A stretch of DNA of 64,000 nt from NCBI RefSeq assembly GCF_028291725.1, contig NZ_JAQGNT010000022.1, positions 62,001 through 126,000 on the forward strand. Reading direction: 5' to 3'. Made by a program: the position numbers and the translations under genes. How positions within the stretch are numbered: the stretch's first letter is position 1; the number at the start of each line of letters is the position of its first letter. Under the pieces are notes generated by a model. The model had not been told where the DNA came from, ran no database searches, and worked only from the letters and a program-made list of their open reading frames with translations. Below are positions 14,248-33,817 of this stretch, piece after piece. The stretch is from Hydrocarboniphaga sp. GTDB lineage: Bacteria > Pseudomonadota > Gammaproteobacteria > Nevskiales > Nevskiaceae.

Positions 14248-16878
14248 ATGAGCATAAAAAATTGCAGGCTGGGCTTGTATGTTGCGGTGATGCTGGGCTT
14301 GAGTAGCACGGGGCCGGTGGCCGCACAGAACGCAGAACCCGCGCCAGCAGCGGCACCCGCAGTACCGGACCCGGCAGTACCCGCTGCCGAAGTCACGCCA
14401 GCTGCTGAAGCCGCGCCCGCCAGGAACATCGCATCGACGCCGCGTAGCGCGCCATCCGACGACATATCCGAAGTCATCGTGACAGCGCGCCGCGTGGAAG
14501 AGCGCATGCAGGATGTGCCGATCTCGATGACGGTGTTCAACCAGGATCAGTTGACCAACCGCAACGTACTGTCGGGCCGCGATCTGGCCACGTACACGCC
14601 GTCGCTGGCCGTCAACGGACGTTACGGCACGGAAAACGCCGCGTTTTCGCTGAGAGGCTTCAGCCAGGAAATCCGTACGACGCCCTCAGTCGCGGTCTAT
14701 TTTGCCGACGTCGTGGCACCGCGTGGCAGCGGTGCGGGCACACCCAGCGGCGATGGCGCCGGCCCCGGCTCCTTCTTCGACCTGCAGAACGTGCAGGTGC
14801 TGAAAGGCCCGCAGGGCACCTTGTTCGGCCGCAATACCACCGGCGGTGCCATCCTGCTCGTGCCACAGAAACCGACTGCCGAGGTTGGAGGCTATGCCGA
14901 GCAGTCGTTCGGCAACTACGGAATGATGCGCAGTCAGGCGGTCATGAACACGCCGATCAGCGACAAGCTGCGCTTCCGTTTCGGCATCGACCACAACGAG
15001 CGTGACGGCTATCTCAACAACACCAGTGGTATAGGTCCCGACAAATTCCAGGACGTCAACTACACGGCAGCGCGCGCCAGCCTGGTGTGGGACGTCACGC
15101 CATCGCTGGAAAACTACACCATCGGTACCTACAGCGTGTCGGATACCAATGGTCAGGTGCCGCGGCTTTTTGTCTGCAATCCCAAATTCGATCCGCGGCG
15201 CGGTCCCACAGGTGCACTCGGCTGTGCCCAGCTCGCGTCGATGCAGGCATCCGGTTCTGATGGCCGCTTCGACATCCAGAGCGACAACCCCAACGCGCAA
15301 TCGCGTACCGACCGTTCGCAGCTGATCAACACCAGCACCTGGCTTGCCAGCGACGCGCTGACGGTCAAGAACATCATCAGCTATGCCGAGCTGGTGAACG
15401 ACTTGCGCGGCGACCTGTTCGGCACTGATTTCTTCACGACGGGAACGGACGGCAATCAGTATCAGGTGGCCTCGAATACCTCGTCGGTGCCGCCGGGTTA
15501 TCACTCCACCGCTCAAAACACGTTCACCGAAGAACTGCAGTTGCAGGGCACGCAGCTGGACGGGCGCTGGGTGTGGCAGGCGGGCGCTTACTATGAATCG
15601 AGCAAGGGCATGGAACCGGCAGGCGCGCAGTCTCCGGCCAACATCAATTGCACCAATTCCGGCACGCTGGATTGCTACGACGTACTGGGGCAAAAGGCCG
15701 ACGCAGCGGCGCAGCTGGCCGGCAGACCCAACGGCATCGGCGTCGGCAGCGTGAACTGGCTGATCGGCACGATCGACTTTCGCAATCTGGGTATTTACGC
15801 GCAGTCGACGTACAGCCTGACCGATCAGCTCAAGGCCACGGGCGGCATCCGCTACACCAAGGACCATGCGGAAAGCGTTGCCGAAACCGCGCTGCGGCGT
15901 TTCCCGGCTCCGAGCTACCGTACACCCGTGGTGTATTGCGCAGACCCGAGTTCCGGTCACGGCGTCAGGGAGATCGTGGCCAGCGTGGACGACTGCCGCG
16001 TGGAGTATTCCCAGGACAGCGATGCCCCGACCTGGGTGTTGGGCCTGGACTATCAGCCGATCAACGACGTGCTGCTCTATGGCAAGTACTCGCGCGGCTA
16101 TCGCCAGGGCAGTGTCCAGCCGTTCTCGGCCGCCGGGCACAATACCTACGATCCTGAGAAGGTCGATACCTACGAGCTGGGTTTCAAGAGCAGCTTCCGT
16201 GCTCCGGTGCGAGGCACTTTCAACGCGGCGCTGTTCTACAACAACTTCACGGATCAGCAGCTGCTGTTCGGTTTCGGCAGCACCAACGGTGCGTCGGGTA
16301 ACGCGGCCATCATCAATGCGGGCAAGTCGGAAATTAAGGGTGCGGAAGTCGAGCTCACGCTGGTGCCTTTCCATGGCATGAACTTCAGCATCAGCTACGC
16401 CTATCTGGACACCGAAGTGAAGAAGCTGATCGCGCCGGTGCCGGCGCCGACCGATCTCTACAACATCGCGAGCCAATCGACTTTCGAGGGTGACCCGCTG
16501 CCGTATTCGACGAAGCACAAGCTGTCGTCGACCGCGAGCTACACCCTGCCGTTGGATGCCAGCATCGGCCAGATATCGATCGGCGCGACTTACAGCTATC
16601 AGAGCCCGCAGTTCATCGCCCACACCACGTCCGACTTCTCCAGCACAACGGCCAACCCATACGGTGAGATCCCGGCCTACTCGCTGGTGAACATGAACCT
16701 GGGCTGGAATGCGATTGCCGGCAGCAACGTCGATGCGGCTCTGTTCGCAACCAATGTGCTCGACAGGGAATACCGCGCCGGCATCACCAACAGCTGGACG
16801 TCCTTCGGCTTCGAAACCGAGATTCCCGGCGAGCCGCGGATGCTGGGCGCCCGGGTACGGGTGAACTTCGGCAGCTGA
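14248..16878 (+). CDS. TonB-dependent outer-membrane receptor
   Basis: An 876-residue outer-membrane receptor. Residues 1-26 form a signal peptide (VAVMLGLSSTGPVAAQ), followed by an Ala/Pro-rich periplasmic stretch to about 70. EVIVTARRVEERMQDVPISM starts the plug domain, which includes NVQVLKGPQGTLFGRNTTGG. The remainder is a 22-strand beta-barrel rich in alternating aromatic residues, ending GARVRVNFGS. This class (CirA/FecA-like, common in hydrocarbon and steroid degraders) imports large or poorly soluble compounds using TonB energy. GAGGAGAGG precedes the ATG. The upstream AraC gene probably regulates it. Confidence 0.95.
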   Translation: MSIKNCRLGLYVAVMLGLSSTGPVAAQNAEPAPAAAPAVPDPAVPAAEVTPAAEAAPARNIASTPRSAPSDDISEVIVTARRVEERMQDVPISMTVFNQDQLTNRNVLSGRDLATYTPSLAVNGRYGTENAAFSLRGFSQEIRTTPSVAVYFADVVAPRGSGAGTPSGDGAGPGSFFDLQNVQVLKGPQGTLFGRNTTGGAILLVPQKPTAEVGGYAEQSFGNYGMMRSQAVMNTPISDKLRFRFGIDHNERDGYLNNTSGIGPDKFQDVNYTAARASLVWDVTPSLENYTIGTYSVSDTNGQVPRLFVCNPKFDPRRGPTGALGCAQLASMQASGSDGRFDIQSDNPNAQSRTDRSQLINTSTWLASDALTVKNIISYAELVNDLRGDLFGTDFFTTGTDGNQYQVASNTSSVPPGYHSTAQNTFTEELQLQGTQLDGRWVWQAGAYYESSKGMEPAGAQSPANINCTNSGTLDCYDVLGQKADAAAQLAGRPNGIGVGSVNWLIGTIDFRNLGIYAQSTYSLTDQLKATGGIRYTKDHAESVAETALRRFPAPSYRTPVVYCADPSSGHGVREIVASVDDCRVEYSQDSDAPTWVLGLDYQPINDVLLYGKYSRGYRQGSVQPFSAAGHNTYDPEKVDTYELGFKSSFRAPVRGTFNAALFYNNFTDQQLLFGFGSTNGASGNAAIINAGKSEIKGAEVELTLVPFHGMNFSISYAYLDTEVKKLIAPVPAPTDLYNIASQSTFEGDPLPYSTKHKLSSTASYTLPLDASIGQISIGATYSYQSPQFIAHTTSDFSSTTANPYGEIPAYSLVNMNLGWNAIAGSNVDAALFATNVLDREYRAGITNSWTSFGFETEIPGEPRMLGARVRVNFGS

Positions 16879-19149: not shown

Positions 19150-19190
19150 GGCAGGTGAAAAGGGCATTCATGGATAGCAGCATCACACTG

Positions 19191-20510
19191 TCATCGTACC
19201 GGACGCGCCGAAGTCCAGTCCGGATAAGGCCCGAGCCGCGCCAGCAGCAGGCCGCAGAGCAGGGCCGTGGGCACGCCGACGATCAACACCGGTGAATAGC
19301 TGCCGACGCGGTCGAACACCAGGCCGACCGCGACCGGCCCGATGCCGATGCCGAGCGCAGTAAGGCCGGACATCAGGCCGAAGATCTTGCCGAAGCTGAG
19401 CAGCCCGCCGTAGCGGCCGGTCAGATAGGCACACAGCTGCATCTGCGCTCCAGTGGTGTAGCCGAGCGCTATCACGGCGGCCATCGCCAGCATCGACGAG
19501 CCCGCGCTGTTGAGCAGCAGCAGGCAGGCCAATGCAGGCAAGGACAGGCTGATGCTGGCGATCCTGGCGCCGTGCCAGCGGTCCAGCAGCCAGCCGCTGA
19601 ACAGTTTGCCGCAGAGGCTGGCGATGCCGGCCGATCCGGCGACGGCCGCGGCGACGGTCGCGGTCAGCCCATGCTCCTTCAGCAGCGGCACCTGGTGAAT
19701 CAGGATGCCGCCGACCAGGATGTTGGTGGTCAGCGTGGCGACGGCGATGCGGATCAGCGCCGGGTTGCGCAGCGCCTCGCGCAGGCTCAGGCCGCGCAGC
19801 GCCACCGCCGCCGGAGCGGCGGCTCTCGCCGCGGCCGGTTGCTGTCGCAGCCGGTCGCGCGCGTCGAAGAAGAACAGCAGGATGAACACCAGCGCCACCG
19901 CGCCCCAGCCGAATCCCAGGCAGACGTAGGCGGTACGCCAGCCCTGCGTGCTGATCAGGTACTGCGTGATGATCGGCGACAGCGTCTGCGCGACGGCGGT
20001 GCCGCAGAGCGTTGCCGCCAGCGCCATGCCGCGTCCGGCGGAGAAGTTGCCGGTGACCGCGGTGGTCCACACCGGCGCCTTGATCGACACGGCTGCCAGC
20101 GCATACAGAGCCCACAGAATCAGCCACTGCGCGATGGAGCCGTTGGCGAGGCTGAACGCGGCGAGCATCGTGGCCGAGACGATCACGCCCGGAATCGCCA
20201 GCCGGCGTGAGCCCCAGCGGTCGATCAGGCCGCCGGCCACCGGTGCCAGCGGTACCGCGATCGCCGCGAACACCGACAGGCCGCCGGCGATCGACGCGCG
20301 GCTCCATCCGAACTCCTGGCTCAGCGGCTCCATGAACAGACCGAGCGAAGAGGCGGCCACCGAGGCGAACGACAGCCCCATCATCGCCGCTCCTACCAGG
20401 GGCCAGTGAGCGCGCCATTCCTGTGCCGCGGTAGGCCCTGCATGCGTCACGCTGAGCTCTTCTATGAGATTCGCCGGAGTGACCGCCAGGGTTTGCGCGG
20501 GAGTCGTCAT
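19191..20510 (-). CDS. MFS transporter
   Basis: A 439-residue major facilitator with about 12 hydrophobic segments after a 35-residue soluble N-terminus. The loop 2-3 signature reads GGLIDRWGSRRLAIPG, and its equivalent in the second half, GKLFSGWLLDRWHGAR, is visible. It fits the monocarboxylate/oxalate-formate type of uptake carriers and probably moves an acidic substrate or intermediate across the inner membrane. It is the last gene of the minus-strand core cluster; the amidohydrolase upstream ends eight bases before its start. Confidence 0.9.
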   Translation of the reverse strand: MTTPAQTLAVTPANLIEELSVTHAGPTAAQEWRAHWPLVGAAMMGLSFASVAASSLGLFMEPLSQEFGWSRASIAGGLSVFAAIAVPLAPVAGGLIDRWGSRRLAIPGVIVSATMLAAFSLANGSIAQWLILWALYALAAVSIKAPVWTTAVTGNFSAGRGMALAATLCGTAVAQTLSPIITQYLISTQGWRTAYVCLGFGWGAVALVFILLFFFDARDRLRQQPAAARAAAPAAVALRGLSLREALRNPALIRIAVATLTTNILVGGILIHQVPLLKEHGLTATVAAAVAGSAGIASLCGKLFSGWLLDRWHGARIASISLSLPALACLLLLNSAGSSMLAMAAVIALGYTTGAQMQLCAYLTGRYGGLLSFGKIFGLMSGLTALGIGIGPVAVGLVFDRVGSYSPVLIVGVPTALLCGLLLARLGPYPDWTSARPVR

Positions 20511-20518: not shown

Positions 20519-21706
20519 TCAGACCTTGATCTTGTAGAGCTTGGCAGCGTTGAGGCTCAGCACCTTGTCGCGTTCCTGCTCGGTCAGGCCGTTGAGTCGT
20601 GCCTCGATGTTCTCGATCGGGAACAGGCTGGTCGGATGCGGGAAGTCGGTTTCGAACAGCACGTTGTCGATGCCCGCGGCGCGCAGCGTGTGCGAGATGT
20701 CTTTCTGCTCGAACCAGAAGCAGGCGTAGAAGTTGCGCTGAAAATACTCCGACGGCTTCAGATCGAACTTCTTGCCTTCGGCGATTTCGGCCAACTGGTA
20801 GTCCAGTGCTTCCATCAGGAACGGTACCCAGCCCACGCCGCTTTCGACCGATACGAACTTGATCTTCGGAAAGCGATCGAGCATGCCGCTATAGATCAGG
20901 TTCGACACGACCTTGCCGTTATTGAAGAACAGCATCGCACCGCTGATGCCGCTGCGCAGATCGCGCGGCAGCGAGGGCCAGCCCTGCTGGCCCATCCAGT
21001 CGATCGAGGTTTCCGACGCGCCGATGTGGAAGTTCACCGGCAGGTCCTTGTCGACGCAGACTTCCCACAGCGGGTCCCAGTGCTTCGATCCCAGATCCTT
21101 GATCTGGGCACCGTTCTCGTCTTTCTGAAAGTGCGGATCGGAGTTGATGTTGATGCCGCGCAGGCCCATCGCCACGCAGCGCTCGGTTTCCTTGACCGCG
21201 GCTTTGACGTCCCACCACGGCAGCAGCGCCATCGGGAACAGGCGGCTTTTTGATTCTTCCTGCAACTCGGCCATCGCGTCGTTGTAGATCTGCGTGCAGA
21301 TCAGCCGCAGTGCCGGATCGACCTTGGCCGACGCCTGGCCGCCGAAACCGAGAATATTCGGATACACGATCTGCGCATGAATGCCGGCCGCGTCCATCAC
21401 CGCGATGCGCTCCTTGACCGACGACGAGCCCGGATGCACGTCGTCGAACTTCAGTTTCAGGAAGTTATCCAGCACGCGAATTTTGGTGCCGTCCTTGAGG
21501 ATGGAGCTGTTGGGATGCGCGCCGGTGCCGATCGACTTGTTGCCGTCGATGATCCAGGACATCTGGCCTTCGTGCATCATCACTTGCGGCACGCGGTCAC
21601 GCACCGAAGCCGGCGCGCGCCGGGTCCAGAGATCATGCGGTTCGGTCAGATGGGTGTCGGCGTCGATGATTTTGCGGCCGGCCGGCTTTACGATGGAGTC
21701 GTTCAT
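20519..21706 (-). CDS. Amidohydrolase-family (ACMSD-like) metal-dependent hydrolase/decarboxylase
   Basis: A 395-residue amidohydrolase-2 protein. Metal-ligand landmarks are DADTHLTEP (residues 17-25), the strand-5 His in LPVNFHIGASE and the Asp in LFETDFPHPTS. The group includes aminocarboxymuconate semialdehyde decarboxylase and aromatic-acid decarboxylases, which perform non-oxidative decarboxylation or C-C hydrolysis with one Zn. It is only distantly similar to the two paralogues at 21728 and 28162. It is tightly spaced with the MFS gene, suggesting a shared transcript. Substrate unknown. Confidence 0.88.
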   Translation of the reverse strand: MNDSIVKPAGRKIIDADTHLTEPHDLWTRRAPASVRDRVPQVMMHEGQMSWIIDGNKSIGTGAHPNSSILKDGTKIRVLDNFLKLKFDDVHPGSSSVKERIAVMDAAGIHAQIVYPNILGFGGQASAKVDPALRLICTQIYNDAMAELQEESKSRLFPMALLPWWDVKAAVKETERCVAMGLRGININSDPHFQKDENGAQIKDLGSKHWDPLWEVCVDKDLPVNFHIGASETSIDWMGQQGWPSLPRDLRSGISGAMLFFNNGKVVSNLIYSGMLDRFPKIKFVSVESGVGWVPFLMEALDYQLAEIAEGKKFDLKPSEYFQRNFYACFWFEQKDISHTLRAAGIDNVLFETDFPHPTSLFPIENIEARLNGLTEQERDKVLSLNAAKLYKIKV

Positions 21707-21727: not shown

Positions 21728-22849
21728 TCAAGCTGCGTTAATGAATTCGGGGTGCGGGACGCGGAACAAGCGTCCTGCGTTGGCGCCGACGATGTCGGCC
21801 TTGTCCTGCTCGCTGATGTCGATGCCATCGAACAGATGTGCGAGCACTTCGCGCGAGCGCGGGAAAGTGCCTTCGTGATGCGGATAATCCGAGCCCCACA
21901 TCAGCGACTGGGTGCCGGTGACGGAGCGCGACATGATGCCGGCACGGTCGGTCTGGAAGGAGCAGGCGACCTGGCGCGCAATGATTTCGCGCGGCGTCAG
22001 CGACAGCTTCGGGCGAACGAAGACGTGATGCGCTTCGTAGACCTCGTCCATGCGTTCGGCGAGCGCGGCCAGCCAGCTGGCGCCGCCTTCGATCACGCAG
22101 ACTTTCGCGCCCGGAAAGCGATCGAGCACGCCGCCGGCGACCAGCTGCATGATCGTCAGCATGCCGTCGCAGGCCTGCAGCGAGTAGTTGATCACTGCGC
22201 CGCCGGGGCCACGATGGCTGCGCACGTCGTCGCGGCCGGTGCCGGTGTGCAAGGCGAACACGATGCCGTGTTCCTGTGCCGCGGCGAACACCGGGTCCCA
22301 TTCCTCGCTGCTGTACAAGGGCAGCCCGGAATTCACCTCGATCAGGCTCGGCAGCATCGCCGAGGTGAAGCCCAGGCCGGCGAGCCGCTTGATCTCGGCC
22401 ACGGTGTTGCCGAAGTCGCGCACCGGCAGGATGCCGCAGCGCACGAACTTCTTCGGATACGGCGACAGCAGACCGTTGAGCCAATCGTTGTAGACCTGCG
22501 CCGTCGCCAGCTCCGCTTCCGCGTTCTTGATCAGAAAGGCGCTCAGGCCCAGCGACGGGAACATGATTTCGGCGTCGATGCCTTCCATCTCCATGTCGAG
22601 CAGGCGCCCGGCGATTTCGCGCCCGCCGCGGCGTTCGGCGCGGCCGAAAGTCTCGCCGTCCGGTCCCATTTTCGGAGCGGGCTTGTTCATCGCTTTCTGG
22701 CTGGTGATCTTGTCGCCGGCCATCAGCAGCATGAAACCGTCGCGCACTTCCATGCGCAGTCCGAGAGGACGCAGCGACGGCGGCAGGCCCTCGCTGAACA
22801 GCGTGGAGGGTTCGACGATATGGCCGTCGGCGCTGAAGACGAATGTCAT
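21728..22849 (-). CDS. Amidohydrolase-family (ACMSD-like) protein, mirror copy A
   Basis: A 373-residue amidohydrolase-2 protein beginning MTFVFSADGHIVEPSTLF, where DGH and E are the N-terminal metal ligands. HTGTG near residue 195 and WGSDYPHHEGTF near residue 320 carry the His and Asp. It is closely related to 28162-29277 throughout (shared VCVIEGGASWLAALAERMDE and DGIDISE). AGGAG precedes the ATG. It is directly downstream of a thiolase-fold gene, so it probably cleaves or decarboxylates a product of that enzyme. Confidence 0.88.
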   Translation of the reverse strand: MTFVFSADGHIVEPSTLFSEGLPPSLRPLGLRMEVRDGFMLLMAGDKITSQKAMNKPAPKMGPDGETFGRAERRGGREIAGRLLDMEMEGIDAEIMFPSLGLSAFLIKNAEAELATAQVYNDWLNGLLSPYPKKFVRCGILPVRDFGNTVAEIKRLAGLGFTSAMLPSLIEVNSGLPLYSSEEWDPVFAAAQEHGIVFALHTGTGRDDVRSHRGPGGAVINYSLQACDGMLTIMQLVAGGVLDRFPGAKVCVIEGGASWLAALAERMDEVYEAHHVFVRPKLSLTPREIIARQVACSFQTDRAGIMSRSVTGTQSLMWGSDYPHHEGTFPRSREVLAHLFDGIDISEQDKADIVGANAGRLFRVPHPEFINAA

Positions 22850-22862
22850 GTCTGACTCCTGA

Positions 22863-24068
22863 TCAATCGGTCCGCAACATCACGGCGGACGGGTCGTGGA
22901 AAAAGCTGCCGATGCAGACCAGTGCGTTTTTTGCACCGCCGATCTGGCGATCACCTTCAAAGCCGCGCAGCTGGCGCACGGCTTCGGTGTAGAAGTTGGC
23001 ACCGCCCGCGCGGCCCTGTGACAGGCCGCCGCCATGCGTGGTGACCAGGGTGCGTCCGCCGTTGAGCCTGAGAATGCTGTTGCGCGTATCCCATGAAGAC
23101 TTGAACAGCTCGCCGGCTTCACCCGGTTTGCAGAAACCCGCAGCCTCCGTCGTCGCAATCGCATCGATGGTGTAGCCGTCGTAGGGATAGAACAGATCGA
23201 CGTCCTCGACGGTCAGCGCGCTGCGCGCCCACAGGCCTTCCAGGCAGACCCAGAATGCGTTGTCGGTCCAGCCCAGTGTGTTCTCGTAGAACTCGCCGAC
23301 GCGCGAGCCGCCCAGCGACATGGAATCGACGTAGACAGATTTCTGCTTGAGATCGCGCGAGCGCTCGGTGGTGGTGATGATGAAGGCCTCGGCGCAATCC
23401 ACCGGCACGTCCATGTCCAGCATCTGCATCGGCGACCAGATCATGCGCGAGGCGTGGTAGTCGTCGAGCGTCATCGGCGTACGCAGCAAAGCGTTCGGGT
23501 TGCGCAGCGCGTGGCTGCGGTTGTTCACCGCCATCAGGCCGAAGGCATCCTTGTTGACGCCGAAGTCGTGCATGTAGCGGCCCATCCAGCCCGCATACGG
23601 CTCGCCGGAGTGAATCCAGCGGCGTGCGAAATCGTTCTCAGTGAACAGTCCGCTGCCCATCTTCTTCTGCGCCGCGCGCAGCCGGAACGGATCGCTGGCG
23701 GCCGAGCGCGACATCAGCACTTCGCGCATCGAAACCTGCACCACCAGCGCGATATCGCAGAGGCCGGAGAACACCGCCTCGGCGGCGAAGACGAAGCTGG
23801 AGCCGAGCCAGCCGTTCTTGCACCAGGTGGTTTTGTCGATGCCGAGCGCGCCCTGCAGCGACAGGAAGCCGGCGCCGCCCATCGCCAGCGGGTCCATGCC
23901 GGAGCCGCAGATGCCGTCGATTTCCTGCCGGTGGATGCCGGCGTCCTCGATCGCCTTGAGTGCGGCTTCGAGGCCGAGCGACAGTGCTGTGCGCTGCGAG
24001 TCGCGAGCATAGGGCGTGGAGCCGACGCCGACGACGGCGATCTGGTCTTTGAGTGGGTTCCTGGCCAT
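22863..24068 (-). CDS. Thiolase-fold protein (Ltp2/SCP-x-like, probable lyase), A
   Basis: A 401-residue thiolase-superfamily protein beginning KDQIAVVGVGSTPY. Where thiolases have NCASG, this protein reads NGWLGSS, placing Gly at the nucleophile; the nearby Cys in WCKNG is three residues off. The usual GHPLG His motif is replaced by GLSQGRAGG. This resembles Ltp2-type proteins that pair with DUF35 partners as retro-aldolases in steroid side-chain removal. A DUF35 gene lies just upstream, across a palindromic repeat. The alignment was made by eye. Confidence 0.85.
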   Translation of the reverse strand: MARNPLKDQIAVVGVGSTPYARDSQRTALSLGLEAALKAIEDAGIHRQEIDGICGSGMDPLAMGGAGFLSLQGALGIDKTTWCKNGWLGSSFVFAAEAVFSGLCDIALVVQVSMREVLMSRSAASDPFRLRAAQKKMGSGLFTENDFARRWIHSGEPYAGWMGRYMHDFGVNKDAFGLMAVNNRSHALRNPNALLRTPMTLDDYHASRMIWSPMQMLDMDVPVDCAEAFIITTTERSRDLKQKSVYVDSMSLGGSRVGEFYENTLGWTDNAFWVCLEGLWARSALTVEDVDLFYPYDGYTIDAIATTEAAGFCKPGEAGELFKSSWDTRNSILRLNGGRTLVTTHGGGLSQGRAGGANFYTEAVRQLRGFEGDRQIGGAKNALVCIGSFFHDPSAVMLRTD

Positions 24069-24102
24069 CGGTCAGCCCCGATCCAATGCGAGGGACGAGC
24101 AC

Positions 24103-24180
24103 CGTAGGGCGGGTCGCGACCCGCCGCTTTCGCTCCGCCGATGCGCGAAATCAAAACGGCGGGTCATGACCCGCCCTACG
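24103..24180. repeat. Paired palindromic repeat (GGCGGGTC / GACCCGCC)
   Basis: Two complementary copies, CGTAGGGCGGGTC with GACCCGCC (24103-24125) and GGCGGGTC with GACCCGCCCTACG (24158-24180), are each palindromic and together form a longer inverted repeat around 32 bases. The element lies between the thiolase-fold gene and its DUF35 partner, inside an otherwise compact run, and could form stable RNA hairpins that uncouple their expression. Confidence 0.75.
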
Positions 24181-24202
24181 AGAGGTATATACGCCATCGA
24201 CA

Positions 24203-24658
24203 TCAGCCCTCCCACGCCGGCATCGGCTCGAAGGCCGGCATGCTCACTTGTCCTTCGTGCGCTATCCACGTGAGCTGTACGGGCATGTCGGGCCTGACCT
24301 CGTCAGGCAGGCAGTTGACGATGCGCGCGAGGTAGCGCAAGCCGTTCTGTTCAACCAGCTCGACGGCCGCCGCGATGATCGGCTCGCGCAGACGGTTGTT
24401 GGGATCGCGCTGCTGCTGGATCAGCGTGAACATGAAGACCTTGCCACGGCCGCTGACTTCGGTGGCTTGCACGTCCCAGGACAGGCACTGCGGACACAAA
24501 GGTCTGTGTGGATACACCCAATAACCGCAGCCGCTGCAGCGATTGATCAGCAGCTTGCCGGCGATGATGCCGCGGTAGTGCGCGATGTTGTCGCGGTCGA
24601 TCAACACGCCGGGAAACGCGGCGAAAACGGCTTCGTCGGAGAGCGCTTCGGAAGTCAC
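24203..24658 (-). CDS. Zn-ribbon OB-fold protein (DUF35), A
   Basis: A 151-residue DUF35 protein. The rubredoxin-like zinc ribbon is CSGCGYWVYPHRPLCPQC (two CxxC pairs, about residues 41-58), and the OB-fold follows (VSGRGKVFMFTLIQQ to VQLTWIAHEGQ). Such proteins bind acyl-CoA and act as obligate partners of thiolase-fold lyases or dehydratases. The GTG start at 24658 overlaps the TGA of the acyl-CoA ligase gene (GTGA), indicating translational coupling. Its likely partner is the thiolase-fold protein at 22863-24068. Confidence 0.88.
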   Translation of the reverse strand: MTSEALSDEAVFAAFPGVLIDRDNIAHYRGIIAGKLLINRCSGCGYWVYPHRPLCPQCLSWDVQATEVSGRGKVFMFTLIQQQRDPNNRLREPIIAAAVELVEQNGLRYLARIVNCLPDEVRPDMPVQLTWIAHEGQVSMPAFEPMPAWEG

Positions 24659-26340
24659 GCCGCGATCTCCCGCTTGGCCCACTGTGACAGCGCGAGCCTA
24701 TCGAGCTTGCCGTTGGCGAGACGCGGCAGGTCGTCGACGAACAGGATTTCGCGCGGCATCTTGAAGTGCGCCAGACGCGGCTTCAGCCAGAGCTGCAAAT
24801 CCTTCTGGCAGATGCGCACGTCGGTGCGCTGGATGACGTAGACACGCACCGCCTCGACCTTGCGCGGATCGGCGACGCCGACTGCGGCGCAATGCGTCAC
24901 CGCCTCGTGGGCCTTGATGACGTTCTCGACCTCTTCCAGCGACACGTTTTCGCCGCCGACTTTCGCCATCAGCTTCAGGCGGCCGACGTAGCGGATGTAG
25001 CCTTCGGCATCGACGGTGACCAGATCCTCGCTGTGCAGCCAGCCTTCGGCGTCGATCGCGCGTGCCGACTCCTCGGGCTTGTTCCAATAGGCGGGCATGA
25101 TGTTGCCGCGTACCCAGGCTTCGCCGACTTCGCCGGGCGCGACGTCATGCCCGGTCTGCGGATCGACCACGCGGATTTCGTTGCCCGGCAGCGGGCGGCC
25201 GCCGGTTGTCAGCTGTTTTTCGAGCGGATCGTCCGGCCCGGTCAGCGAGGCCGGGCCGTAGGTTTCGGTGAGGCCGAAAGGCGAGAACGAAAATGTCGCG
25301 CTGGGTAAAACGACTTTCGCCGCCTCGTTGTGCGCATGCCCCAGTCGCACCGAGGGGAAGCGGATGCCGCGCTCGTGGGCCTCCATCACGACTTCCTTGC
25401 CGAGCACGCTGACGAAGATCGTCGGCTGCTCCTGCTGCATCAGACGAATCGCCAGCGCGATGTCGAAGGCCTCGGTGAACACCAGCGTGCCGCCGATGGG
25501 CAGCATGCTCATCTGCCCGTAGATACTGCCGCCGGCGTGGAAGAACGGCATCATCGAGAAGTAGATGTCCTCGCGGCGCATGTCGCAGCGCCGTCCGTGC
25601 AGCAGGCCGACGGCGACGAAGCCGCCCTGTTGCAGCATCACGCCCTTGGGAAAGCCGGTGCTGCCGGAGGTGTACTTGACCATCAGCAGGTCGTCGGGTG
25701 TCACGGCGCGGGCCATGTCGTCGGCGACCGCAAGCCATTCGCTATTGCCCACGGCACCGACCGCTTCCAGTTCGTCCCAATCGAAAGTGCCGGGATGTCG
25801 TGTGTTCTCACGTGCAAACATCACGACGTTGCGCAGATCCGGCAACTCGGGCGCGAACAGCGAGCCGGGCTCGGCCGTATCGGCAAAAGCCGGACCGATC
25901 TCCGCGAGCATCTGCGGCATGTCGAGCTTGCGAAAGCGGTCGAGCATGATCAGGTGACGCGCGCCCGATTGGGCGATGCAGTATTTGATCTCGACGGGTT
26001 TCAGGAAGGTGTTGATCGGCACCACCGCGGCGCCGAGTCGCTCTGCGGCGAACGCGGAGATGATCCATTCCAGCCGGTTGGTCATCCACAGCACCACGCG
26101 GTCGCCGCGCTGCACGCCGATGCTGGCGAGCCCGGCGGAGAAGTTGCGTGCGCGCGTCAGCAGCTGGCCATAAGTGAGCCGCTGGATGTTGCCCGCATCG
26201 TCCGCCGCCACCAGCGCGACACGGTCGGGGTCGAGCGCCGCTGCATCCGAAATCGCCTGCCACATCGTGCGCGAGCGTGCCGCCGCCAGCGCGCGCTTGC
26301 CTGCTTCGTCAGCCTTGATCCAGCTGATCTCGTTCGTCAT
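24655..26340 (-). CDS. Acyl-CoA ligase (class I adenylate-forming)
   Basis: A 561-residue AMP-forming ligase. Motifs are the P-loop YTSGSTGFPKGVML, the aromatic/ATP motif FGLTETYGP, the hinge region HSEDLVTVDAEGYIRYVGR, and the C-terminal catalytic Lys in LANGKLDR. It converts a carboxylic acid, ATP and CoA to acyl-CoA. It is the centre of the mirror-ordered block: a DUF35 gene starts in its stop codon and another ends at its start. It probably activates the pathway substrate before the thiolase-fold steps. Confidence 0.92.
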   Translation of the reverse strand: MTNEISWIKADEAGKRALAAARSRTMWQAISDAAALDPDRVALVAADDAGNIQRLTYGQLLTRARNFSAGLASIGVQRGDRVVLWMTNRLEWIISAFAAERLGAAVVPINTFLKPVEIKYCIAQSGARHLIMLDRFRKLDMPQMLAEIGPAFADTAEPGSLFAPELPDLRNVVMFARENTRHPGTFDWDELEAVGAVGNSEWLAVADDMARAVTPDDLLMVKYTSGSTGFPKGVMLQQGGFVAVGLLHGRRCDMRREDIYFSMMPFFHAGGSIYGQMSMLPIGGTLVFTEAFDIALAIRLMQQEQPTIFVSVLGKEVVMEAHERGIRFPSVRLGHAHNEAAKVVLPSATFSFSPFGLTETYGPASLTGPDDPLEKQLTTGGRPLPGNEIRVVDPQTGHDVAPGEVGEAWVRGNIMPAYWNKPEESARAIDAEGWLHSEDLVTVDAEGYIRYVGRLKLMAKVGGENVSLEEVENVIKAHEAVTHCAAVGVADPRKVEAVRVYVIQRTDVRICQKDLQLWLKPRLAHFKMPREILFVDDLPRLANGKLDRLALSQWAKREIAA

Positions 26341-26775
26341 TCAGGATTCTCCTCTGAGCCTGAACACCGGCACGGTGGTATTCGCGGCGGCGAGCCAGTC
26401 GACTTCCACCAGCGCGTCGATCGCCACCGCTGCGGCCGGCGCATCGACCAGCGAGGACACCAGGCGCACACCCGGCGCCTCGTCGAACACGACAAGCGCG
26501 GGAATGCGGAACTGCGGTGGCGCCGCTTCGCCGTCGCCACGCACCGGCAGCACCGTGAAGGAATAAATGCGCCCCTGTCCCGGCGGCAGCCATTCGACGT
26601 TCTGCGACTGGCATTGCGAACAAAACGGCCCGGACGGCCAGCGGAAAGTGCCGCAGGCACCGCAGCGCGGCACCAGCAGCCGGTGCTCCTCGGCGGCCCG
26701 CCAGAACGGCTCGCTCCAGTGGTCCATCGGCACTTCCAGCGCGGAAAAATCAGGGCAGATGCTGCGCGCGCTCAT
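26341..26775 (-). CDS. Zn-ribbon OB-fold protein (DUF35), B
   Basis: A 144-residue DUF35 protein with zinc ribbon CGACGTFRWPSGPFCSQC (about residues 38-55) and an OB-fold (PGQGRIYSFTVLP onward to VEVDW). GAGGAA precedes the ATG. Its stop codon directly abuts the ATG of the acyl-CoA ligase. By position it should partner the thiolase-fold protein at 26999-28165, from which it is separated by a large cruciform repeat. Confidence 0.88.
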   Translation of the reverse strand: MSARSICPDFSALEVPMDHWSEPFWRAAEEHRLLVPRCGACGTFRWPSGPFCSQCQSQNVEWLPPGQGRIYSFTVLPVRGDGEAAPPQFRIPALVVFDEAPGVRLVSSLVDAPAAAVAIDALVEVDWLAAANTTVPVFRLRGES

Positions 26776-26811
26776 CGCGGGTTCCTCGATGCAGTCGAGT
26801 CCAGTCCACTA

Positions 26812-26926
26812 CCCGTTCGTGTCGAGTAGCGACGCGAAGCGTCGCGTATCGAGACAGCCGAGCCGCCGGTGCGGACACCTCGATACGCCGCATCGCTGCG
26901 CGATGAGGCTACTCGGTGCGAACGGG
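26812..26926. repeat. Branched cruciform intergenic repeat
   Basis: The outer arms CCCGTTCG...GTCGAGTAGC and GGCTACTCGGTGCGAACGGG pair. Inside, CGTATCGAG pairs with CTCGATACG, and GCGACGCGAAGCGTCGC and CATCGCTGCGCGATG form two hairpins. The element can fold as a multi-branched structure of about 115 bases. It fills the gap between thiolase-fold B and DUF35 B and carries no gene. It resembles a dispersed palindromic family found in many proteobacteria. Confidence 0.75.
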
Positions 26927-26998
26927 AGGAGGGTGCGGCCGAAGCCATTCCGCATAGCCGTGTGCTTTCGCGGGAATGACGGCGCATGCCGAGCGATA

Positions 26999-28165
26999 TC
27001 ATCGTTCGTTCCTCAGGATCGCCGCCGTCATCGGAACCGGCGCAGGCCCGCCGGTGACCAGCGCGGTCTTCGCATTCTTGACCTGGTTAACCGCAGTGCC
27101 GCGCAGTTGCTCGACCGCTTCGCGGATATGCGTCATGCCGACCACATAGCCTTCCGACAGATGCCCGCCGTGCGGATTGACCGGAATGGAACCACCCTGC
27201 CGGATCGCGCCGCTTTCGACGAACGGGCCACCTTCGCCGCGCTTGCAGAAGCCGTAGTCCTCCAGTTGCATGATCACCAGTGGCGAGAAATGGTCGTAGA
27301 TCAGCGCGACGTCGATATCCTTCGGCCCGATTCCGCTCGTCTCGTAGAGACGCTGGGCCACGGCGGTCGCGCCGGCGGAAACGAACTCCGGCTCCGGCTG
27401 GTTGAGCCAGAAGAAGGCCCGGCCCCAGTTGCGCGTGGCGACCTGTGCGGCGCCGGCGATATAGACCGGACGCTGCCTCAGATCGGCAGCGCGTTCGCTG
27501 CTTGTGACGACGAAGGCCAGCGCGCCGTCGGTCTCCAGACAGAAATCGAGCCGGCACAGCGGATCGGCGAGCATCGGCGAGGCCATGTACTCATCCAGCG
27601 TCAGCGGCTTGCGGCGCAGCGCGGTTTCGCGCGTGGCAGCCGCAGCGCGCGAGGCCATCACCACTTCACCGAAAGCTTCGCGCCGGGTGCCGTAGAGATG
27701 CATGTGCCGCCGCACCGACAGCGCCAGCGCCTGCCCGGGCCCGGAGAGCCCGGCGAGCGCGTGGAACACGCCGTCGGGGTTTGCTCCCAGCATGTTCAGC
27801 GACTGCCCGACGCGGCGGCCGGTCTGCTGCATCGCGCCGATGCACAGGATGGTCTTGGCCCGGCCGGTTTCGATGCCCATCGAGGCTAGGTCCAGCACGC
27901 CGGCCATGCCGCCGCCGTAGCCCGAGACGATGTGCGAAAACGTCAGCTGCTCGATGCCGAGCTGTTCGATCAAGCTGCCCGGATCGAAGCCATAGGCGAA
28001 GAAGGCGAAGCCATCGACGTCTTTGATCGTCAGGCCCGCGTCGGCCAGTGCCGCGAACACTGCTTTGCCGATCAGCTCGGGCACCGTCTGCGGAGCAGAG
28101 GTGCCGCGATAGTAATAGGGCGTCGCGCCGACGCCGACGATCGCAGCTTCGCTTTTTGCACTCAT
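26999..28165 (-). CDS. Thiolase-fold protein (Ltp2/SCP-x-like, probable lyase), B
   Basis: A 388-residue thiolase-superfamily protein beginning SEAAIVGVGATPYY. The nucleophile region reads IVSGYGGGMAGVLDLASM, with no Cys, and the C-terminal His motif GHPLG is GYVVG here, within NPHGGHLSEGYVVGMTH. This fits a lyase or aldolase partner rather than a thiolytic enzyme. The start at 28165 overlaps the stop of the amidohydrolase gene (ATGA), so these two are coupled. It is similar in plan but not closely related to 22863-24068. Confidence 0.85.
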   Translation of the reverse strand: MSAKSEAAIVGVGATPYYYRGTSAPQTVPELIGKAVFAALADAGLTIKDVDGFAFFAYGFDPGSLIEQLGIEQLTFSHIVSGYGGGMAGVLDLASMGIETGRAKTILCIGAMQQTGRRVGQSLNMLGANPDGVFHALAGLSGPGQALALSVRRHMHLYGTRREAFGEVVMASRAAAATRETALRRKPLTLDEYMASPMLADPLCRLDFCLETDGALAFVVTSSERAADLRQRPVYIAGAAQVATRNWGRAFFWLNQPEPEFVSAGATAVAQRLYETSGIGPKDIDVALIYDHFSPLVIMQLEDYGFCKRGEGGPFVESGAIRQGGSIPVNPHGGHLSEGYVVGMTHIREAVEQLRGTAVNQVKNAKTALVTGGPAPVPMTAAILRNER

Positions 28166-29277
28166 TGCGCGAGAACCGCAGGATGCGGCAGGCGGAACAG
28201 GCGCGCGGCGTTGAGGCCGACGATGTCCGCCTTGTCGCGCTCGCTGATGTCGATACCGTCGAACAGATGCGCGAGCACCTGCCTGGAGCGCGGGAAGGTG
28301 CCCTCGTGGTGCGGATAGTCCGCGCCCCACAGCAGCGCCGCGCTGCCGGTGACTGAGCGCGCCATGATGCAGGCGCGGTCGTACTGAAAACTGCAATGCA
28401 CCTGGCGCGCGATGATCTCGCTGGGTTTCAGCGACAGCTTGGGTGACACGAAGCTCGCATGCGCTTCGTAGACTTCGTCCATGCGCTCGGCGAGTGCGGC
28501 GAGCCAGCTGGCGCCGCCTTCGATCACGCAGACCTGCACCTTGGGGAAGCGGTCCAGCAGCCCGCCCGAGACCATTGCCATGATCGTGACCATGCCGTCG
28601 CAGGACTGGATGGCGTGATTCATCACCGCACCGCCGGCGCCCTTGAAGCTGCGCACGTTGTAGCGGCCGGTGCCGGTGTGCAGGGCCATCACCATGCCCA
28701 GGCCCTGCGCGCAGGCGAACACCGGGTCCCAGGCTTCGCTGTTGTAGGTGGGCAGCCGGGATTCGGCGTCGATCAGGCTCGGCAGCATCGCCGCGGTGAA
28801 GCCCAGCGAGGCCAGCCGCTTCATTTCGGCGACGGTATTGGCGACATCGCGCACCGGCAGGATGCCGCAGCGCACGAAGTGCTCGCGATGGTCCTTCAGC
28901 AGGCCGTGATGCCAGTCGTTGTAGACCTGCGCGGTCGCCAGCTCGGCCTCGGGATTCTCGATCATGAACGCGGTCAGGCCCAGGCTCGGGAACACGATCT
29001 CCGCGTCCACACCGTCCAGCGCCATGTCGGCCAGGCGCGGTCCGACTTCGCGATTGCCGCGCCGGTCCGGGCGGCCGAAAGGCTCGCCGTCGGGGCCGAG
29101 GCGTGGCGGCATGTCGAGCGGACGCCGGCCGGTGATGTGCTCGCCGGCGTAGGACAGCAACAGGCCGTCGCGCTTTTCGGTGCGCAGGCCGTGGCGCAGC
29201 AGCGAGGGTGAAAGCTTCGTCTCGAACAGATCGCTCGGTTCGACGACGTGGCCGTCGGCGCTGAAGACAAAATTCAT
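28162..29277 (-). CDS. Amidohydrolase-family (ACMSD-like) protein, mirror copy B
   Basis: A 371-residue paralogue of 21728-22849 with the same landmarks: FVFSADGHVVEPSDLF at the start, HTGTG in the middle and WGADYPHHEGTF near the end. Shared blocks such as VCVIEGGASWLAALAERMDE show recent common ancestry. GAGGAG supports the start at 29277; the frame continues upstream without conservation. Its stop overlaps the thiolase-fold B start. It probably acts on the product of thiolase-fold B/DUF35 B by decarboxylation or C-C hydrolysis. Confidence 0.88.
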   Translation of the reverse strand: MNFVFSADGHVVEPSDLFETKLSPSLLRHGLRTEKRDGLLLSYAGEHITGRRPLDMPPRLGPDGEPFGRPDRRGNREVGPRLADMALDGVDAEIVFPSLGLTAFMIENPEAELATAQVYNDWHHGLLKDHREHFVRCGILPVRDVANTVAEMKRLASLGFTAAMLPSLIDAESRLPTYNSEAWDPVFACAQGLGMVMALHTGTGRYNVRSFKGAGGAVMNHAIQSCDGMVTIMAMVSGGLLDRFPKVQVCVIEGGASWLAALAERMDEVYEAHASFVSPKLSLKPSEIIARQVHCSFQYDRACIMARSVTGSAALLWGADYPHHEGTFPRSRQVLAHLFDGIDISERDKADIVGLNAARLFRLPHPAVLAQ

Positions 29278-29326: not shown

Positions 29327-30187
29327 TTATTCCGGCGTCTTGCGGCCGGGGCCGCCGCGCACGGCAACCGTCATTTCGCCGATGCGATCCATCTGCGCAT
29401 ACATCACGTCGCCGGGGCGCACCGGGCCCAGACTCTTGGGCGGTGTGCCTGAGAAGATCACGTCGCCGGGATACAAGGTCATGATCGAGGCCACGTGCTC
29501 GATCAGCTCCGGCACGCCGAGCACCAGCCGGCCGGTCGAATCCTGCGTGCGTACTTCGTCATTGACCTTGAGCAGGTAGGACAGCTGTGAGGGATCGGGA
29601 ATCTCGTCGGCCGTGACCATCCACGGCCCGATCACACCGTAGCTGTCGAAGGACTTGCCGAAGCTCGGGAACTCCTTGCCCTGCATCGTCATGTCCAGGC
29701 CGATGGCGTAGCCGGCGACGTAGTTCAGCGCTTCGGATGCCGGGATTTCGGTGCCTTGCTTGCCGATAATGATGGCCAGCTCGATCTCATGAAAAGTCAC
29801 GCGCTCGGGCCAGCGCAGCGTCACGCCATCCGACGCACCGGCCGCCGCACTGGTCATCTTGAACAGCAGGCCGAGCTTGCGTGGATGGCCGCCCATCGCC
29901 AGTACATCGGTGTGATTGCCGGCGCCGCAGGCAAACTTGCCGGGATTCGCCACCGGTGATTTCAGCAGCACGCTGGCCAGCGGCACCGGCTTGGCGCCGC
30001 GTGCGAGTTCGAGCATCTGCGGACGAAGTGCTCCGAGATGGGTGATGAACAGATCGCCCGGCGGCAGCGGCCAGCGCAGTGAGGGCAGCGTTTCGGCGAC
30101 GGCGGAGACGTCGCGCACGGTGTCGCCTTCGACGATGCCGATTCGGATCGGACCGCCCGAGACATCCTGATACCGGCAGATCTTCAT
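29327..30187 (-). CDS. Fumarylacetoacetate hydrolase-family protein
   Basis: A 286-residue FAH-family enzyme. Metal-ligand and signature regions are GAGNHTDV, FHEIELAIIIGKQG (two Glu), GLDMTMQGKEFPSFGKSFD, and the C-terminal GDVIFSGTPPKSLGPVRPGD. The family includes 2-hydroxyhepta-2,4-diene-1,7-dioate isomerases, oxaloacetate decarboxylases and acylpyruvases, which cleave or tautomerise beta-diketo and oxo acids made by ring cleavage. The start at 30187 (MKICRYQD) is the family N-terminus. It is transcribed toward amidohydrolase B, about 50 bases away. Confidence 0.9.
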   Translation of the reverse strand: MKICRYQDVSGGPIRIGIVEGDTVRDVSAVAETLPSLRWPLPPGDLFITHLGALRPQMLELARGAKPVPLASVLLKSPVANPGKFACGAGNHTDVLAMGGHPRKLGLLFKMTSAAAGASDGVTLRWPERVTFHEIELAIIIGKQGTEIPASEALNYVAGYAIGLDMTMQGKEFPSFGKSFDSYGVIGPWMVTADEIPDPSQLSYLLKVNDEVRTQDSTGRLVLGVPELIEHVASIMTLYPGDVIFSGTPPKSLGPVRPGDVMYAQMDRIGEMTVAVRGGPGRKTPE

Positions 30188-31552: not shown

Positions 31553-33817
31553 TCATCCGACAACCACGCGCACGCGAGCGATGTTCTGGACCCGGCCAAA
31601 CGGCGTCTGCGCATCGCCCTGACGCTGCGAGGTGGCGCGCAGCACGGCGAAATAGGTGCCCGGCCTGGAGTAGGCCTGCCCGGCCGATAGCTGCAGCCGC
31701 GGCAGCGGGGTGATCGGCTCGGCCGTCGGGTAAGTGCCGGCACCTTCGAAGTCCCACTCGGCTGCGACCACCATGCCGGCGCCGGCGGGCAGCTCGATGT
31801 TCGCTGTGAACCTGACCAGCTCACCCACGGCCACCTCGGCGCGCTCACCGCCATTGGCTTTCAGTTCGACGACTGCCTGTATACCCATGCGCTGATCGGC
31901 GCTGCCCGGTAACAGGACCTGGGTGTCGACCACCCGGTATTGCGTGCTCGAGGGTTTGACGCCTGTCTCGACCCAGGCGCTGAGGTCGCGCAACGCCTGC
32001 TGCAGCGCGCCTTCGAAGCTCACGGTATGCGCGCGGGCGGCTGCTGTCCGAGGGTTGTCGTGCTGGGCATGGTCGATGAACCAGAGCGCAAACTGCTGGT
32101 CGAAACCCGGGCCGAGCGCCTGCTTCACCTTCGAGCGATACCAGTCGGCCTGCCAGGCCAGCGCGTCGATATCCATCAGCGCTTCCAGCACCAGCATCTT
32201 GCCGTGAATCCGGCCATTGGGTACCGAGCCCGCGGTACCGGCGGTGCCGATCGGCCCGATCAGAATCTCGCGCTGCGGGTAGATCGGCTCGCCGTCGGCA
32301 CCGCGGAACTGGTTCCAGCCCACCATGTCGGGCGTCGGCACCTGGTGCCGATGGTAGGTCTGCAGAGCCAGCGCCCAGGCGTTGTCGATACGCACTGCGT
32401 CGCCAGCGCTGATGCCGTTGATCACCGACTGATCCGCGGCGAAAGCGAAGCCGATGGTCTTGCCATCGATGGACGCAATCGGAACGCTTCTGCCGGCGCT
32501 TTCGCCGCTGATGATCAGCAGATGCGCGTTGGCGAAATCCCGCTGCGGGACTTGCGCCAGTTCGACTTGCTTCGGAAAGCCGTCGATGACCCTGGCCACG
32601 GCGGTGTCGAACTGGAAACGCAGCGCGGCGAGACCCGATGCCGGATCGCTGCCCAGATAACCGGGCAGGGTCCAGAAATCGTCGACGTAACCGGGATCGA
32701 GCATCGGTACCAGCGGCGCGACCTGCATGAAGTAGCCGCTGCCCAGGGTTTCGTGATTCCACCAACCGCGCGGCGGATAACCCATCAGCGTCGCCTCTCT
32801 GAGCGCGGCACGTTCTTCGTTGTCCAGCGTGGCGTAGGGGTCGCCGCTGCCGCCCGGATTGGTGGCATCCATGATCGCCGGGAACTTGTTGCCTGCCTTC
32901 AACACGCGCAAGGCATGCATGCGGATGGTGAACATGCCGGGAATGGCGTTGGGCGTAGCCATCACGAACGGCACGAAGCCATCCCAGACGCCGCGCGTGT
33001 TCTCGGCGCTGCCGATCGTCTGATAGGAGCCGCCGCTGCCGCCGAACAGATAACCGTAGGGGCGGTGCGGGCCGTACAGCTCGGCCGCGATCACGCGCGA
33101 GTATTTCGCCGCAGCCGCATTGACCCGATAGGCGGCGATCGCCGGATCGGCCATGCCGCCTGCGCGATCGGCGCCGCCCAGATTGGTCTGCACGTAGTAG
33201 GCACCACTGTCGATTGTGAACGCGAGATTGCCGGTTGCTACCTCGAACTCGATCGGGAATGGCCCGATGTCTTCGCTGGTCGCCATCGGATAGGTGTTGT
33301 GGAAGAAGCGCCGCCGGTAGCGATCAGCCGGCGGAAAATAGAACGAAAAGCGCGCGCCGGTGCCGGTGAAACCGCCATGCACGTAGCGATGCGGCACCGG
33401 CTCCTTGCGCAGTTCGTTCACATCGACATAGGGCTGGTTGTATTGCGGATCGATGGAATCGCCGGTGATTTCGCCGCAGGGCGCAGCGTCCGCCGCGGGC
33501 GGCTCCATCGATGGCGATCCGGCCTTCAGCCGCTCGCCGCTGAGCTTGGACTTGCCGAACAGCCCGAGCTTGGCGCTGCCGCTCAGCGTGTCGCCGTCGA
33601 TTCTGGCGATGAAGCTCACGGTGATCGGGATCGGCCTGGTTGCTTTCATCTGCCAGCTCAGCGTGTCGGCGCTGACGCTGCCCGTGATGTCGTGCGTTCC
33701 CAGAGGGCTTTCGATGCGGCCGGTAAAAGTGTCGCTCAGCGTATCGATGCGCAGGTGCATCTGCTGCGGGCCAGCGGGGGTCGACATGGTGACTTTCCAG
33801 CTTCCGATTGCATCCAC
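31553..33817 (-). CDS. Large orphan protein with alpha/beta-hydrolase-like signature
   Basis: About 754 residues; no family could be named. The first 100 residues form a small beta-rich domain (GSWKVTMSTPAGPQQMHL, TGSVSADTLSWQMKATRP) resembling a lipocalin-like lead domain. The middle contains YLFGGSGGSYQTIGSAENT, a possible nucleophile elbow like that of tannase-type hydrolases, then HGKMLVLEALMDIDALAWQ and FIDHAQHDNP, which could carry the acid and His. The last 100 residues are beta-rich and PKD-like. No signal peptide is evident. The GTG at 33817 is chosen (GGAG eight bases before); the frame opens at a GTG at 33895, inside a palindrome. Confidence 0.65.
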   Translation of the reverse strand: MDAIGSWKVTMSTPAGPQQMHLRIDTLSDTFTGRIESPLGTHDITGSVSADTLSWQMKATRPIPITVSFIARIDGDTLSGSAKLGLFGKSKLSGERLKAGSPSMEPPAADAAPCGEITGDSIDPQYNQPYVDVNELRKEPVPHRYVHGGFTGTGARFSFYFPPADRYRRRFFHNTYPMATSEDIGPFPIEFEVATGNLAFTIDSGAYYVQTNLGGADRAGGMADPAIAAYRVNAAAAKYSRVIAAELYGPHRPYGYLFGGSGGSYQTIGSAENTRGVWDGFVPFVMATPNAIPGMFTIRMHALRVLKAGNKFPAIMDATNPGGSGDPYATLDNEERAALREATLMGYPPRGWWNHETLGSGYFMQVAPLVPMLDPGYVDDFWTLPGYLGSDPASGLAALRFQFDTAVARVIDGFPKQVELAQVPQRDFANAHLLIISGESAGRSVPIASIDGKTIGFAFAADQSVINGISAGDAVRIDNAWALALQTYHRHQVPTPDMVGWNQFRGADGEPIYPQREILIGPIGTAGTAGSVPNGRIHGKMLVLEALMDIDALAWQADWYRSKVKQALGPGFDQQFALWFIDHAQHDNPRTAAARAHTVSFEGALQQALRDLSAWVETGVKPSSTQYRVVDTQVLLPGSADQRMGIQAVVELKANGGERAEVAVGELVRFTANIELPAGAGMVVAAEWDFEGAGTYPTAEPITPLPRLQLSAGQAYSRPGTYFAVLRATSQRQGDAQTPFGRVQNIARVRVVVG

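Follow-up and report, generated by a model that had tools for sequence, protein, structure and literature searches.

A seven-gene block in the genome of a Hydrocarboniphaga sp. appears to hold two oxygenase/aldolase cassettes that share a coenzyme A (CoA) ligase and would hydroxylate an acyl-CoA and then cleave it by a retro-aldol reaction; we give this reading a probability of roughly 0.57. The block lies on contig NZ_JAQGNT010000022.1 of a 6.47-Mb draft assembly, in the 64,000-nucleotide stretch from position 62,001 to 126,000 that we analyzed as a whole and call the window (G000:C102:62001-126000 in our numbering of genomes, G, and contigs, C; loci are numbered with an L). An earlier, sequence-only reading of the window had described seven genes in mirror order on one strand, and they were found in that order on the minus strand with matching Pfam families: PF04909 for the outer proteins AH-A and AH-B, PF22691 for the thiolase-fold proteins ThioA and ThioB, PF12172/PF01796 for DUF35A and DUF35B, and PF00501/PF13193 for the central ligase. 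The outer pair are indeed close paralogs and the inner pairs more divergent (identities of 70% for AH-A/AH-B, 29% for ThioA/ThioB and 28% over 126 residues for DUF35A/DUF35B). The families, the fold, the metal-site residues, the catalytic residues of ThioB and the recurrent association of these genes were observed directly.

The outer proteins, which had been taken for amidohydrolases, are probably PtmU3-type dinuclear oxygenases to which that label does not apply. In searches against PDB sequences, AH-A and AH-B both matched PtmU3 of the platensimycin/platencin pathway best (3.1e-67 and 3.9e-64), followed by DitZ of Rhodococcus rhodochrous (PDB 8uyr; 2.4e-40 and 1.3e-30) and then by 5-carboxyvanillate decarboxylase (1.3e-15 and 2.4e-16). 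The predicted model of AH-A, the only one of the two modeled (predicted local distance difference test score, pLDDT, 88.6), was compared with solved structures by Foldseek (PtmU3, E 4.9e-32, template modeling score 0.86-0.90; DitZ, 5.8e-26; all others 4.6e-17 or weaker). A VIA alignment, a second look at structure only that excludes nothing, gave PtmU3 a Z of 45.1 (root-mean-square deviation 2.5, 351 residues), DitZ 38.0 and others at most 35.9. AH-A is 36-37% identical to PtmU3 and 25-26% to DitZ, its second-best structure match.

Aligned with PtmU3, AH-A and AH-B contain the six metal ligands (three His, two Asp and one Glu) and a Glu matching PtmU3 E313, and these seven residues are kept in 54/54 rows of the PtmU3-like group, which was defined by similarity alone. 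The seventh, acidic residue is the discriminating one. An acidic residue at the E313 position is described as a conserved feature of binuclear members alone (PMC7782822), and the dinuclear oxygenase members of PF04909 are termed AROs (PMC10811679). PtmU3 is described as a two-iron enzyme that uses O2 to hydroxylate C-5 of a diterpenoid-CoA (PMC10127204) and as a β-hydroxylase taking CoA-ligated substrates (PMC7782822). AH-A and AH-B thus have the same fold and ligands as PtmU3, E313 included; PtmU3 is biosynthetic, whereas they are found in a catabolic-type island with Ltp2-type lyases and a ligase. In DitZ, whose role in diterpenoid catabolism is suggested by its name only, the alignment places an Asp where AH-A and AH-B have Glu.

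Catalysis by Ltp2 is described as depending on Tyr294, within a YDHF motif, and Tyr344, and that of Sal on the Tyr and Cys of YDCY (PMC12329534). ThioB has both Ltp2 tyrosines; its clade keeps YDHF in 20/20 rows and the second Tyr in 19/20, the remaining row being unaligned there. Adjacent to it, DUF35B carries the motif C-x2-C-x10-C-x2-C, so that YDHF, both tyrosines and the C4 zinc motif are shared with the Ltp2-ChsH2 and Sal-Shy systems. Judged by these residues, ThioB-DUF35B is a candidate Ltp2-type retro-aldolase. A classical thiolase is unlikely, because the first Cys of ThioB is residue 108 (the others are 204, 209 and 307); the nucleophilic Cys of SCP2-type thiolases is absent from its N-terminal half, and the stretch aligned there is Gly-rich like that of Ltp2, in an alignment that held no SCP2 thiolase. 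ThioA-DUF35A may be a second lyase that has diverged, with an uncertain reaction; the ThioA model was weaker (pLDDT 75.5), with Ltp2 still as top match (E 6.8e-30). ThioA and ThioB each form one clade (support 100/100), and the tree tool flags long branches around ThioA.

In the proposed pathway, the ligase would turn a carboxylic acid into its CoA thioester, and AH-A and AH-B would hydroxylate the acyl-CoA at its β-carbon, consuming O2 and two electrons. ThioB-DUF35B would then split the Cα-Cβ bond of the β-hydroxyacyl-CoA, which would either release a carbonyl product (ketone or aldehyde) together with a shortened acyl-CoA or open a ring. ThioA-DUF35A would perform a second step of unspecified chemistry. 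We infer every reaction step, the step order and the kind of substrate, the oxygenase being placed before the aldolase because PtmU3 makes and Ltp2 consumes a β-hydroxyacyl-CoA. For Ltp2-ChsH2 and Sal-Shy, the β-hydroxyl is described as coming from a hydratase after desaturation (PMC12329534; PMC12502768), whereas the block has an oxygenase candidate instead. This oxygenase would stand in for the acyl-CoA dehydrogenase and hydratase of steroid side-chain pathways, and such a route would suit acids with a quaternary α-carbon. Steroid cassettes (Shy-Sal, ChsH1-ChsH2-Ltp2) have a MaoC-type hydratase and a dehydrogenase beside the aldolase, unlike the block; Pfam found neither an acyl-CoA dehydrogenase nor a MaoC-type hydratase in the block or in the scanned genes of the cluster at L022. 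The Pfam scan of the window covered 39 of 58 predicted genes, and its lone dehydrogenase match, at 1-302, was weak. In the ibuprofen-CoA pathway (ipfABDEF), an oxygenase likewise acts on a CoA thioester before a thiolase-fold/DUF35 pair strips the acyl part; that oxygenase is a Rieske dioxygenase, unlike the PF04909 type.

The association between PtmU3-like genes and lyase pairs recurs beyond the window. Neighborhoods were counted for 103 of 104 PF04909 rows (L115 4670-5959, lacking the N-terminal motif, was removed ahead of the grouping) from 92 of 185 loci entries (the window, L020-L033 and L108-L184; short search-returned loci were left out and duplicates collapsed), with frames taken stop to stop, so that small distances are approximate. 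A thiolase-fold gene and a DUF35 gene both lay within 5 kb of 25/54 PtmU3-like genes, 2/33 other oxygenase-type genes, a group for which the acidic residue was part of the definition, and 3/16 remaining genes, a mixed group. Within the PtmU3-like group, the pair accompanied 7/12 AHs at 70-100% identity to AH-A, 10/18 at about 46-58% and 8/24 at about 30-44%. Where both flanks were full (at least 5 kb each side), it was present at 20/43 PtmU3-like genes vs. 2/20 other oxygenase-type PF04909 genes (Fisher P = 0.005; the rows are related, so the P-values are too small) and at 3/13 remaining genes.

Among 397 genomes of the family of the L022 genome, 14 had an AH gene (E ≤ 1e-100), 17 a ThioB gene (E ≤ 1e-95) and 14 both, at E cut-offs chosen after viewing the lists (hypergeometric P = 3e-23, kinship ignored). 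The two genes lie within 6 kb of each other in 11 of these 14 genomes, 42-45 kb apart on the same contig in G770 and G819, and on different contigs in G561. PtmU3-like genes, counted with the center genome included, occur in 4/58 genomes of the family of the source genome and 2/398 of a phylum sample (both E ≤ 1e-40), and in 21/397 of the L022-genome family (E ≤ 1e-45); being uncommon fits a specialized substrate. The suggested partnership of an amidohydrolase with Ltp2/DUF35-type lyases therefore stands as a recurring link, including in two Actinobacterial metagenome-assembled genomes (MAGs), and falls as to the partner, which is probably not an amidohydrolase.

Besides the relatedness of the rows and the choice of cut-offs, several observations weigh against two oxygenase/aldolase cassettes. 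ThioA lacks the second catalytic Tyr and the His: all 6/6 rows have YDGY (Gly for the His of YDHF) and Arg at the second Tyr. The earlier suggestion of two lyase-type modules with one shared ligase is supported; that of two equivalent lyases is not. The six ligands also occur in AH3, a third PF04909 protein next to the block, and in 16/16 remaining-group rows, so they are not oxygenase-specific. A search for an electron donor gave no Fer2 match on the contig and no ferredoxin or other small Rieske protein in the vicinity of the block; the closest Rieske match is an oxygenase alpha subunit (window 39683-39916). AibH1H2 and SfbO, likewise PF04909 dinuclear monooxygenases, are described as having been discovered through a small Rieske ferredoxin in their operons (PMC10811679; PMC7782822). 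No pair lies within 5 kb of 23/43 full-flank PtmU3-like genes, including that of L027 (71%), and in the source genome and its family 4/5 other PtmU3-like loci have none (L148, L150, L157 and L158, the last with one flank of only 4.3 kb), L159 having one. The genome of L148 has a ThioB of 57% about 14 kb away. Lastly, 3/17 ThioB genomes are without a close AH. As an observation in its own right, the source genome carries on G000:C46 another PtmU3-like gene (59%, 47828-48889) and a ThioB-like gene (57%, about 62496-63695), with about 14 kb between them.

The AHs might also be oxygenases that are independent of the thiolase-fold/DUF35 pairs, both being merely common in catabolic islands. The genes without a close pair and the separated genes in G770, G819 and G561 speak for this, as do the 14 DUF35 matches in the source genome, most without a nearby PtmU3-like AH, and the opposite strands of AH and ThioB in L165 and L168-L176. 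Genome-level co-occurrence (14/14), the contrast with other oxygenase-type PF04909 genes, the 4-bp overlap of AH-B and ThioB, and the recurrence of the order AH-ThioB-DUF35B in Actinobacterial MAGs argue against it, and we regard such independence as unlikely.

A scan of genome contigs yielded 14 loci (L020-L033) in which the gene order could be compared. The order is AH-ThioB-DUF35B-ligase in L026 and in L023, the latter with ThioA-DUF35A divergent upstream. It is AH-ligase-DUF35A-ThioA in L020 and in L025, which additionally has a distant DUF35-ThioB pair (ThioB 53%) whose DUF35 is close to neither DUF35A nor DUF35B. In L022 and L024 it is AH-ligase-TonB receptor-MFS-ThioB-DUF35B-DUF35A-ThioA (the transporter pair was Pfam-checked in L022 only, where a LysR gene lies ahead of the AH). 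The Actinobacterial MAG loci L030 and L031 have AH-ThioB-DUF35B, followed in L030 by a distant ligase, and L108, on the contig of L021 about 42 kb off, has ThioB, DUF35B and AH. Within the stretches read, single halves therefore comprise A in L020 and B in L026, L108, L030 and L031; no thiolase-fold/DUF35 pair was found at L021, L027, L028, L029, L032 and L033, L021 and L028 being cut by contig ends. DUF35A relatives (52-67%) accompany ThioA and DUF35B relatives (55-71%) accompany ThioB throughout L020, L022-L026 and L108. The block ligase is 69-72% identical to those of L023, L028, L024 and L022 and 55-61% to those of L020, L025 and L026; ligase calls rest on BLAST, and a ligase profile also caught L030 7893-9233, a frame without Pfam match.

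The mirror order, present in the window, was kept in 0/4 relatives with both halves (L022-L025), and we rejected the symmetry as meaningful. Three pairs and a single gene can be arranged in 630 ways, 6 of which (about 1%) read as palindromes, but the symmetry was spotted post hoc. The possibility that such genes normally occur separately, which had been named as a refutation, was partly borne out, as each half is readily found without the other and many PtmU3-like genes have no lyase pair beside them. A rule of one AH per half was not upheld either: L022 and L024 have a single AH with both thiolase/DUF35 pairs, so the parallel AHs of the earlier proposal are not required per unit. Compared with these loci, the window block is best read as the B and A cassettes placed around one shared ligase. 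In the AH tree, AH-B joins rows of L022, L023, L024, L028 and L108 (support 100/99), with AH-A just outside (94/94); all but L028, whose locus is cut, carry ThioB at the locus. A recent tandem duplication of AH-A and AH-B was rejected, because AH-B groups with rows of other genomes and AH-A lies outside. L028 is labeled Actinobacteria and sits inside Novosphingobium rows, which may reflect a binning error.

Beside more distant AHs, the thiolase-fold proteins have YDHF and Tyr in L159 and YENF and Tyr in L160, L183 and L184; the latter pairs, with the second Tyr retained, represent a further lyase variant. Near other PF04909 genes, the corresponding residues are YDSF/His (L118), YDGF/Arg (L151) and YEAF/Tyr (L152). 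L151 (G000:C102:39000-58500, on the same contig beyond the window) is a second, non-orthologous set in the source genome, made up of a DUF35 gene, a thiolase-fold gene (YDGF, Arg) and two PF04909 genes, one ARO-type and one AH3-type, in adjacent frames.

AH3 could, in addition to the reading preferred here, pair with AH-A as a subunit in the manner of AibH1 with AibH2, which would make the oxygenase heteromeric; we find this doubtful. AH3 is 23% identical to AH-A, keeps the six ligands but has Thr where the seventh, acidic residue would stand, and is not classed as an ARO. In this it resembles AibH1, described as mononuclear and without the acidic residue (PMC7782822), and AH-A/AH3 resemble AibH2/AibH1. 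Oxygenase-type and AH3-type frames lie side by side in the window, L151 and L144, an adjacency biased by the fact that most loci were fetched for holding an oxygenase-type gene. Against a partnership, the best structure match of AH3 in the PDB is DitZ rather than AibH1, a clear AH3-type gene was not seen in L020, L026 and L030, and PtmU3 itself is described as not associating with such a partner (PMC10401708). An AH3 relative in L022 (78%) adjoins a 47% relative of the window's fumarylacetoacetate-hydrolase (FAH) family gene. AH3-type (non-acidic) genes also occur within 1.5 kb of ARO-type genes at L144:6228-8801, L136:5886-9915 and L022:7551-11116, loci chosen for their AROs.

Still less probable is a role of the outer PF04909 proteins as mononuclear enzymes (hydrolases, decarboxylases or hydratases) that handle lyase products, for example by ring opening or decarboxylation: most characterized PF04909 enzymes are described as of this sort (PMC10811679), decarboxylases also align with AH-A and AH-B, and the ligands shared with AH3 and the 16 remaining rows do not separate the classes, yet PtmU3 is ahead of every match but DitZ by at least 15 orders of magnitude in E, and all PtmU3-like rows keep the acidic residue of binuclear members, which is lacking in 11/16 remaining-group rows.

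Among the open-access literature matches listed, no paper was seen to link a PF04909 oxygenase to a thiolase-fold/DUF35 aldolase, an absence that counts as weak evidence. If two oxygenase/aldolase cassettes are indeed present, some "amidohydrolase" genes beside an LTP-type thiolase and an OB-fold gene would mark an O2-dependent entry to acyl-CoA C-C cleavage rather than a hydrolysis. This would give a testable function to a PF04909 group without an NCBIfam model, a second feeding mode to DUF35-type aldolases, candidate chemistry for terpenoid-acid ring opening, and a possible bacterial route for bulky acids that block ordinary β-oxidation. Tentatively, and at somewhat less than even odds, a PtmU3-like oxygenase and an Ltp2-like aldolase may form a recurring catabolic unit that, by hydroxylation and then retro-aldol cleavage, would shorten or ring-open CoA acids closed to β-oxidation by a quaternary α-carbon, such as resin acids; it would then be a degradative counterpart of platensimycin A-ring cleavage. 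In these, C5 is β to the C18 carboxyl. Pseudomonas abietaniphila is described as yielding four 5-hydroxylated resin acids by enzymes left unassigned, with a P450 suggested for one, and as requiring the sterol-carrier-like ditF for growth (PMC13063091); the proposed chemistry might account for these 5-hydroxy resin acids.

Table 1. Features of the block and its surroundings, in window positions
Feature	Coordinates	Strand	Basis
AH-A, PF04909, PtmU3-like dinuclear oxygenase candidate, 373 aa	21728..22849	-	Pfam, PDB search, alignment, model
ThioA, divergent thiolase-fold, YDGY motif, Arg at Ltp2 Tyr344 site, 401 aa	22863..24068	-	Pfam, alignment, model, tree
134-bp gap; palindrome-type 18-bp repeat twice (24108-24125, 24158-24175)	24069..24202		repeat search
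DUF35A, ChsH2-type OB fold, C-x2-C-x10-C-x2-C, putative ThioA partner	24203..24658	-	Pfam, motif
Acyl-CoA ligase, AMP-binding family, 561 aa, between both halves	24655..26340	-	Pfam
DUF35B, ChsH2-type OB fold, C4 zinc motif, putative ThioB partner	26341..26775	-	Pfam, motif
223-bp gap; single repeat copy, same repeat paired elsewhere in window	26776..26998		repeat search
ThioB, Ltp2-like retro-aldolase candidate, YDHF Tyr and second Tyr, 388 aa	26999..28165	-	Pfam, alignment, tree
AH-B, PF04909, PtmU3-like dinuclear oxygenase candidate, 371 aa	28162..29277	-	Pfam, alignment, tree
AH3, third PF04909 protein, without acidic residue of binuclear members	20519..21706	-	Pfam, alignment
FAH family protein	29327..30187	-	Pfam
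MFS transporter, downstream of AH3	19191..20384	-	Pfam
TonB-dependent receptor	14494..16878	+	Pfam

The neighbors had been described as partly overlapping, which holds for two of the six junctions (4 bp each); one further pair abuts, one is separated by 13 bp, and the two long gaps, both containing repeats, separate ThioA from DUF35A and DUF35B from ThioB. DUF35A starts with GTG, and a longer frame is possible from 24682. AH3 follows AH-A after 21 bp and the FAH-family gene lies 49 bp ahead of AH-B; since both adjoin closely, the block extends past the seven genes. The repeat with a single copy inside the block (26964-26981) forms inverted pairs at 6283-6364 and 19069-19150 (0/100 shuffles). 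NCBIfam assigned no family to AH-A, AH-B, AH3 or DUF35B, and none of the models listed for the remaining block proteins reached its cut-off (for the ligase, among the best 25 of 106 models).

The surrounding catabolic-type island contains a Rieske oxygenase, two TauD-family enzymes, ligases and a CoA transferase. A substrate guess from the Rieske oxygenase was dropped, as its PDB matches were mixed in function (best 7.8e-23) and mostly covered the N-terminal half. A DUF2889 gene and a second frame of similar N-terminus lie at 18039-19049 and 11278-12201, and relatives of the DUF2889 gene recur near the AH loci L020, L025 and L029. Between TauD and glyoxalase-family genes, a 780-aa frame without Pfam match (31553-33895) may be miscalled.

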